64,000 nucleotides of DNA, from the NCBI RefSeq assembly GCF_014197265.1, contig NZ_JACIFH010000001.1, positions 868,001 to 932,000 on the forward strand, written 5' to 3'. Under the pieces are notes generated by a model, which had not been told where the DNA came from, searched no databases, and saw nothing but the letters and a program-made list of their open reading frames with translations. The position numbers were made by a program, and so were the translations under genes. Positions 38,744 through 38,866 of the stretch are shown here, piece by piece; position 1 is the first letter of the stretch; every line of letters starts with the position of its first letter. This DNA is from Microbacterium invictum (lineage in GTDB: Bacteria; Actinomycetota; Actinomycetes; Actinomycetales; Microbacteriaceae).

Positions 38744-38749
38744 TAGTCT
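38744..38749 (+). promoter_or_regulatory. -10-like TAGTCT for the leuA leader
   Basis: TAGTCT lies 6 bases before the leader peptide ATG, so the transcript is likely to begin at that ATG. Confidence 0.6.
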
Positions 38750-38755
38750 TTCTGC

Positions 38756-38806
38756 ATGCGCTTCAGCGGCCTGCTTCTTAGCTGCCGCGACGAGTCCTCG
38801 TTCTAG
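38756..38806 (+). CDS. leuA leader peptide (16 codons, three consecutive Leu codons)
   Basis: The short frame encodes MRFSGLLLSCRDESSF and ends in TAG. It begins 6 bases after a -10-like TAGTCT, so the transcript is probably leaderless. The run CTG CTT CTT at codons 6-8 is what a leucine-sensing leader needs, and CTT is rare in the high-GC neighbouring genes. The last codons lie in the 5' arm and loop of a strong hairpin (see the structured element). It is 60 bases upstream of leuA, and it is too short to be found by length alone. Regulation by leucyl-tRNA supply is inferred from layout. Confidence 0.75.
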   Translation: MRFSGLLLSCRDESSF

Positions 38807-38839
38807 GGCCCTCCTCGTCGCGGAGCTTGGTGTTGGCCC
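38785..38839 (+). promoter_or_regulatory. leuA leader pseudoknot-like RNA element
   Basis: A perfect 10-bp stem (CCGCGACGAG at 38785-38794 with CTCGTCGCGG at 38814-38823) encloses a 19-base loop containing GGGCC (38806-38810). That GGGCC can pair with GGCCC at 38835-38839, giving an H-type pseudoknot. CTCGTC (38814-38819) is also complementary to GACGAG (38849-38854), next to the leuA Shine-Dalgarno region. A conserved pseudoknot upstream of leuA (the LEU element) has been described for most Actinobacteria. This sequence fits that description by position and form. There is no T run, so translational control is more likely than termination. Confidence 0.65.
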
Positions 38840-38866
38840 GCCTCATCTGACGAGAGAACGCGAATC

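Follow-up and report, generated by a model that had tools for sequence, protein, structure and literature searches.

The DNA immediately upstream of leuA in the analyzed window (a stretch of 64,000 nucleotides, G000:C1:868001-932000) carries a further member of the published LEU element family, in which a short leader open reading frame (ORF) with a run of leucine codons accompanies an H-type pseudoknot. A sequence-only reading of this DNA had already called it a LEU element, and this is borne out by covariation in the stem P1 and by a swap test of the pseudoknot; every coordinate in that reading also matches the sequence base for base. Our comparison adds that the element has spread to leuC, leuB and a second leuA and that the leuB leaders carry changed codons; it also provides support for P1 and the pseudoknot, and an evaluation of the candidate Shine-Dalgarno pairings against one another. 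We give roughly even odds to the element exerting leucine-dependent translational control of leuA via ribosome position on the Leu codons.

Organization of the leader in the window

The features of the leader are as follows.

38744-38749, + strand: TAGTCT, candidate -10 hexamer, 6 nt upstream of the leader ATG
38756-38806, + strand: leader ORF MRFSGLLLSCRDESSF, start ATG at 38756, stop TAG at 38804-38806
38771-38779, + strand: Leu codons CTG CTT CTT, the presumed sensor; the leader segment containing them is a possible pairing partner of the leuA Shine-Dalgarno region
38785-38794, + strand: 5' arm of P1, CCGCGACGAG, within the leader ORF (C-R-D-E codons)
38806-38810, + strand: 5' strand of the pseudoknot, GGGCC, located in the loop of P1 and starting on the final base of the stop codon
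38814-38823, + strand: 3' arm of P1, CTCGTCGCGG; as an alternative, its CTCGTC can pair with GACGAG at 38849-38854
38835-38839, + strand: 3' strand of the pseudoknot, GGCCC, partner of GGGCC at 38806-38810
38849-38860, + strand: leuA Shine-Dalgarno region GACGAGAGAACG, with which the candidate sequestering pairings would form (GACGAG 38849-38854, AGAACG 38855-38860)
38867-40633, + strand: leuA, 2-isopropylmalate synthase, 588 aa, ATG at 38867 (NF002991, 889.8 bits, cut-off 455)

Read directly from the sequence, the leader ORF encodes 16 residues. Rfam returned 0 matches at E values up to 5 within 38650-38900, which leaves a T-box or other Rfam RNA family unsupported there; the sole Rfam matches in the window at the gathering score are three tRNA genes (6304-6376, 49577-49649 and 55409-55482). 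The folding energy of the window segment taken alone is unremarkable (z -1.27, with 22 of 200 shuffles equally good).

The transcript is probably leaderless, as the sequence-only reading had proposed, with its start at the AUG itself. Consistent with this, a TANNNT motif begins 12 or 13 nt upstream of the start codon in 156 of 203 leaders (122/159 leuA, 28/28 leuC and 6/16 leuB), a count that leans toward this spacing because leader starts were picked by a score favoring it. A generic promoter scan of 38600-39000 was negative for a consensus sigma-70 promoter. As far as the excerpted accounts go, a leaderless LeuL1 leader peptide precedes leuA in Streptomyces lividans (PMC8079986), and a ribosome-protected uORF precedes leuA in Mycobacterium abscessus (PMC4974804).

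Phyletic distribution and target genes

A search of the genome with window positions 38700-38900 recovered, besides the query itself, a match at G000:C1:731898-731959 (84% identity, E 3.6e-10), about 136 kb before the window. The gene that follows is leuC (TIGR00170, 736.7 bits, cut-off 560.25); thus a LEU element, newly described here, lies before leuC in this genome, outside the window. This copy (L002:1493-1602) reads TAATCT, 6 nt, ATG and the peptide MRIALLLLSGRDEISF; its P1 is identical to that of the window, and its pseudoknot letters differ but are compensated, with GCCC in the loop facing GGGC. The presence of a second leader in the same genome indicates that the window leader is more than a chance occurrence, as does the fact that leuA leader DNA was matched in all 59 sampled genomes of the genus, 48 of them with two or more matches. 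Within the family, 147 of 149 sampled genomes match, 98 of them at least twice; those second matches that were examined individually, a part of the total, are leuA or leuC leaders, weak matches aside.

Covariance models built from 29 sequences of the genus (R1) and from 60 sequences of the order (R2) extended this range: R1 matches 147/198 genomes of the order and R2 324/344 sampled genomes of the class. In the phylum sample R2 matches 41/296 genomes, of which six, from two families, lie outside the class; the examined loci outside the class (L142, L143, L155, L156, L222 and L223) are all upstream of leuA.

Target genes were assigned from individually examined loci among the matches listed. 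Parsing succeeded for 203 of 211 loci (L090, L093, L111, L118, L152, L158, L195 and L204 were lost), after omission of five weak loci (L211 and L218-L221) and of L224, a 263-base contig end; the same-genome repeats L001, L053, L054 and L060 were kept out, and L010, with a Pro within its Leu stretch, was dropped from an early parse. By target, the 203 parsed elements divide into 159 before leuA, 28 before leuC and 16 before leuB; since they include nine repeated pairs, the distinct elements number 194 (152, 26 and 16, respectively). Among the loci examined, leuC copies occur in the same family only. A second leuA, about 55% identical to the window LeuA, is preceded by a leader of its own in twelve parsed genomes spread over several families (L190, L194, L199, L201, L208, L209, L210, L212 and L214-L217), each beside another leuA leader of its genome, and both of the second leuA genes tested match NF002991. 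The leuB assignment is supported by NF002898 in the two genes tested (591.1 and 557.8 bits, cut-off 393).

A scan of named records for the leuB-type pattern found 13, including Mumia, Actinoallomurus, Actinopolymorpha, Phytoactinopolyspora, Haloactinopolyspora and a Sporichthyaceae bacterium; leuB was recognized by script in 6 of the 13, and a small ORF comes next in 12. This small ORF, unannotated, of 19-50 aa and with an end like ALQEAMDRRDNGG, separates the LEU element from leuB (L171, L189, L132, L205 and others). It is present in all 16 parsed leuB loci, where the parser demanded it, and one more locus, L195, failed the pattern; none of the four small ORFs tested has a Pfam match, and where named they are "hypothetical protein".

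Several sequences stand apart from these classes. At L093:815-908 a divergent leuA (50% identity) has its own LEU-like leader with P1 unparsed, in a genome that also carries leuA and leuC elements. On the contig that holds the LEU element L210, L211 lies about 2.5 kb away; it is LEU-like but degenerate, no leu gene was recognized downstream of it, and as a weak model match it was left out of the counts. So were the weak matches L218-L221, which likewise have no recognized leu gene downstream and resemble chance matches inside coding DNA. The weak third match L049 has neither leuA nor leuC there. In the open-access literature, the scope of our search (subscription journals lie mostly outside it), we found no report of a LEU element before leuB or leuC.

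Conservation of stem P1 and the pseudoknot

Swap tests, in which partners were exchanged within one gene class, took 175 of the 203 elements and then 66 representatives under 80% similarity; of the 28 left out, 17 have a P1 shorter than 9 bp (Streptomyces-like bulged stems are among them), and in 11 the gene start is doubtful. The two arms of P1 are strongly partner-specific (z -11.7; this and the other swap-test z values are optimistic, since related sequences are still in the set). In 60 sequences, P1 is paired in 99.7% of 600 cells of an alignment fitted to it, and three of its ten pairs show both-sided changes (28 cells), a covariation score reached by 0 of 500 shuffles. For the pseudoknot, own partners beat swapped ones (z -5.9, 0/2000 permutations). 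A pseudoknot of at least 4 bp can be drawn in 66/66 representatives, some of these by chance given that a best-helix search was used, and 34% of the other tails pair better with the window loop than its own tail does. Of the compensatory changes that the sequence-only reading had asked for, covariation is present in P1 (3/10 pairs); the pseudoknot is partner-specific.

The remaining variation in P1 is slight: six of its ten pairs never vary across the 60 sequences, which is beyond what folding needs. Such near-invariance would suit a pseudoknot to which a regulatory protein binds (ML1624 orthologs, DEAD-box-type, per PMC1262725), with leader translation secondary, and the authors of 2005 found a matching phylogenetic pattern for ML1624 (PMC1262725). 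We nevertheless regard this explanation as rather unlikely in view of the properties of the leader frame.

Reading frame and codon content of the leader

In 202 of 203 parsed elements (65/66 representatives) the spacing between leader start and P1 leaves one and the same remainder modulo 3, while in the same 203 elements the loop and tail lengths fall in all three modulo-3 classes, that is, are not frame-locked. The keeping of the frame amid this spread again indicates that the leader is more than chance. At least three consecutive Leu codons are present in 154 of 159 leuA leaders and in all 28 leuC leaders. A protein-binding site would need neither the conserved frame nor the Leu runs. Nor would it need a codon content that changes with the target gene, as it does before leuB: 0 of 16 leuB leaders has a run of three Leu codons, mixed Val/Ile/Leu codons replacing Leu-Leu-Leu (e.g. 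MRKQVVILGCRGEAS, MRQVLVLITCRGGA, MLWSVRILSCRDGAR and MTRIFVLPSRGGAR). Conservation of frame and Leu codons in relatives was a further check put forward in the sequence-only reading; with both kept and P1 covarying, the lack of conservation and of compensatory change that it named as counter-evidence is not what the relatives display.

Five distinct leuA leaders are without a run of three Leu codons, and three of these sit on second leuA copies; the second-leuA leaders without the run (among L214, L215, L209, L217 and others) include MLPRTTVLRRRGGA.

In the 66 representatives, 82 of the 187 Leu codons of leuA leaders are CTT, vs 34 of 1451 in the downstream leuA/leuC genes; this rare codon is thus strongly in excess in leuA leaders, and pairing with the Shine-Dalgarno region does not by itself account for the excess. 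The Val codon GTA (9 of 13 Val codons of the leuB leaders in the same representatives) is in excess as well, likewise unexplained by such pairing. A frameshift stimulated at CTT by the pseudoknot and yielding a LeuA fusion was considered and rejected: the shifted frames run open into leuA in the proper register in only 13 (+1) and 12 (-1) of 66 representatives.

The position of the codons relative to the fold is also constrained. In 56/66 representatives 5 nt separate the last Leu codon from P1, in 66/66 the stop codon lies 5' of the P1 3' arm, and in 65/66 the codon after the one that enters P1 encodes Arg. The conserved C-terminal codons, this Arg among them, could be read as the mark of a nascent-chain arrest peptide in which the amino-acid sequence, rather than codon charge, is the signal. 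This appears very improbable: the P1 5' arm supplies the codons for the C-terminal residues, whose variation follows the stem (Asp/Gly/Ser with compensating changes), and the residues ahead of the Leu run vary among leaders.

Pairing with the Shine-Dalgarno region

Among the 66 representatives, the 24 nt of leader before P1 pair with their own Shine-Dalgarno region 1.7 kcal/mol better than with swapped ones (z -5.3, 0/2000), a result that, like the other Shine-Dalgarno tests, rests on predicted gene starts, since these were script-chosen on Shine-Dalgarno strength. The last 14 nt of the leader give z -3.8. The P1 3' arm also prefers its own Shine-Dalgarno region, by 0.6 kcal/mol (z -3.4, 0/2000), and the control segments show no such preference (z -1.1 for the loop, z -0.5 for the P1 5' arm and z 0.6 for upstream DNA). 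Pairing of the leader Leu-codon region with the Shine-Dalgarno region is thus partner-specific at the level of predicted energies, and that of the P1 3' arm more weakly so.

These results separate two alternatives raised by the sequence-only reading. The pairing of CTCGTC with GACGAG belongs to the P1 3' arm class, which is weakly supported, whereas the pairing of CGTTCT with AGAACG belongs to the loop class, which is without support. The loop CTCGTTCT/CGTTCT does pair strongly with the Shine-Dalgarno region in the leuC copy L002 (-14.2 kcal/mol, 1% of others better), and for want of set-wide support (z -1.1) it was rejected as a general feature.

The window copy itself is not outstanding. The stem between Leu codons and leuA Shine-Dalgarno region is partner-specific across the set (z -5.3), yet 43% of other Shine-Dalgarno regions pair better with the window leader than its own, and in the single-sequence fold of this copy, which does not represent the pseudoknot, the Leu codons are not paired with the Shine-Dalgarno region. 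When a ribosome is modelled at Leu1 or Leu2, P1 is predicted to stay and the Shine-Dalgarno bases to be little changed; at Leu3, the P1 3' arm is predicted to pair with the Shine-Dalgarno region (0.69), contrary to the model proposed below. Folding of the window copy alone, as modelled, reproduces no clean switch.

When Leu codons were compared with a draw from gene usage, the pairing gain of the actual codons was not significant (-0.52 kcal/mol, SE 0.38, 57 elements); relative to the leader codon pool the pairing was better (-0.92, SE 0.29). Shine-Dalgarno pairing alone does not explain leader codon choice.

Proposed mechanism of regulation

Across the sequences compared, the analysis recovers the ORF, the Leu run, P1, the pseudoknot and, as predicted pairings, the partner-specific contacts of the leader and the P1 3' arm with the Shine-Dalgarno region. 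From this we infer the transcript start, stalling, the direction of the response and the translational output, with ribosome stalling a plausible trigger.

Based on the geometry of ribosome and leader and on the swap tests, we propose the following model. A transcript starting at the AUG would be translated into the 16-residue peptide, its Leu codons lying 5 nt before P1 of the H-type pseudoknot and its stop codon within the loop of P1, bordering the pseudoknot strand; a ribosome at that stop would cover the P1 5' arm. When leucine is plentiful, ribosomes would clear the Leu codons, and the Leu-codon region would pair with the leuA Shine-Dalgarno region, repressing leuA translation; in some lineages the P1 3' arm may also pair with it under these conditions. 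When leucine is scarce, a ribosome paused on the Leu codons would cover the sequestering strand and leuA would be translated, while P1 and the pseudoknot could stay folded ahead of the paused ribosome. The sensor codons would thereby double as part of the sequestering strand.

The leader-peptide architecture, which resembles that of classical attenuators, raises the question of transcriptional control, whereby the position of the leader ribosome decides Rho-dependent or pause-dependent termination before leuA; in the part of PMC13236596 available, actinobacterial ilvB leaders are indeed transcription attenuators. For leuA we judge this improbable, since the terminator hairpin of a classical attenuator is lacking (a scan of 38600-39000 gave 0 terminator-like sites), a typical terminator is likewise missing from the S. 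lividans leuA leader according to the excerpted text of PMC8079986, and the partner-specific Shine-Dalgarno pairing points to translation. The sequence-only reading had noted the missing U tract and suggested a translational output, with which the absence of a terminator-like site agrees; this absence leads us to favor control at the level of translation, exerted through where the ribosome sits on the Leu codons.

More tentatively, and at somewhat worse than even odds, the LEU element may be an evolutionarily mobile module of the leucine-pathway regulon of Actinomycetes, whose independent copies would control leuA, the second leuA, leuC and the small-ORF-leuB operon, with sensor codons retuned to Val/Ile/Leu before leuB and forming part of the Shine-Dalgarno-sequestering strand. 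The latter arrangement would explain why Leu-codon mutants of S. coelicolor do not fit classical attenuation: a codon change would destroy the sensor and the sequestering strand together. Leader-peptide mutations of S. coelicolor leuA are described as having some effect that is inconsistent with classical attenuation (PMC1262725, on Craster 1999), and elsewhere in the same paper Leu-codon mutations are said to be without influence on regulation; its authors favored a protein ligand.

The leuA element has been known since 2005, and its mechanism is still not agreed. Copies on other pathway genes, with different codons and their own compensated pairings, amount to a natural experiment: because codon content, stem and Shine-Dalgarno partner vary separately, reporter fusions can separate stalling, protein binding and sequestration. 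The copies before other leucine-pathway genes may make the element a shared pathway switch, and they are potential leucine-responsive control points for laboratory and production actinomycetes.

Relationship to known systems

The LEU element of actinobacterial leuA was described in 2005 with a Leu-run leader peptide, a pseudoknot and a base stem of the Leu codons with the leuA Shine-Dalgarno box (PMC1262725), and the elements studied here share with it the leader ORF, the pseudoknot and the lack of an obvious terminator, and also, as a pairing predicted across the set but absent from the predicted fold of the window copy, this base stem. They differ in their targets, reported there as leuA and a B. 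longum transposase and extended here to leuC, leuB and the second leuA, and in the other codons found before leuB. LeuL1 of S. lividans is reported as leaderless, as is probable here, with MRFGLLLLSCRGEGL and no typical Rho-independent terminator; the excerpted text of PMC8079986 mentions neither the pseudoknot nor the Shine-Dalgarno pairing. Given these two descriptions, the second of them seen in excerpt, the view of the sequence-only reading that the peptide is the less described part does not hold. Like the LEU element, classical leu/ilv attenuators encode a short leader peptide enriched in the amino acid under control, but here there is no terminator and no U tract, and P1 is tied into a pseudoknot. 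In uORF translation attenuation, as presented in part of PMC13236596, stalling is thought to free a downstream Shine-Dalgarno site, and the likeness of the LEU element to such systems is one of working principle only.
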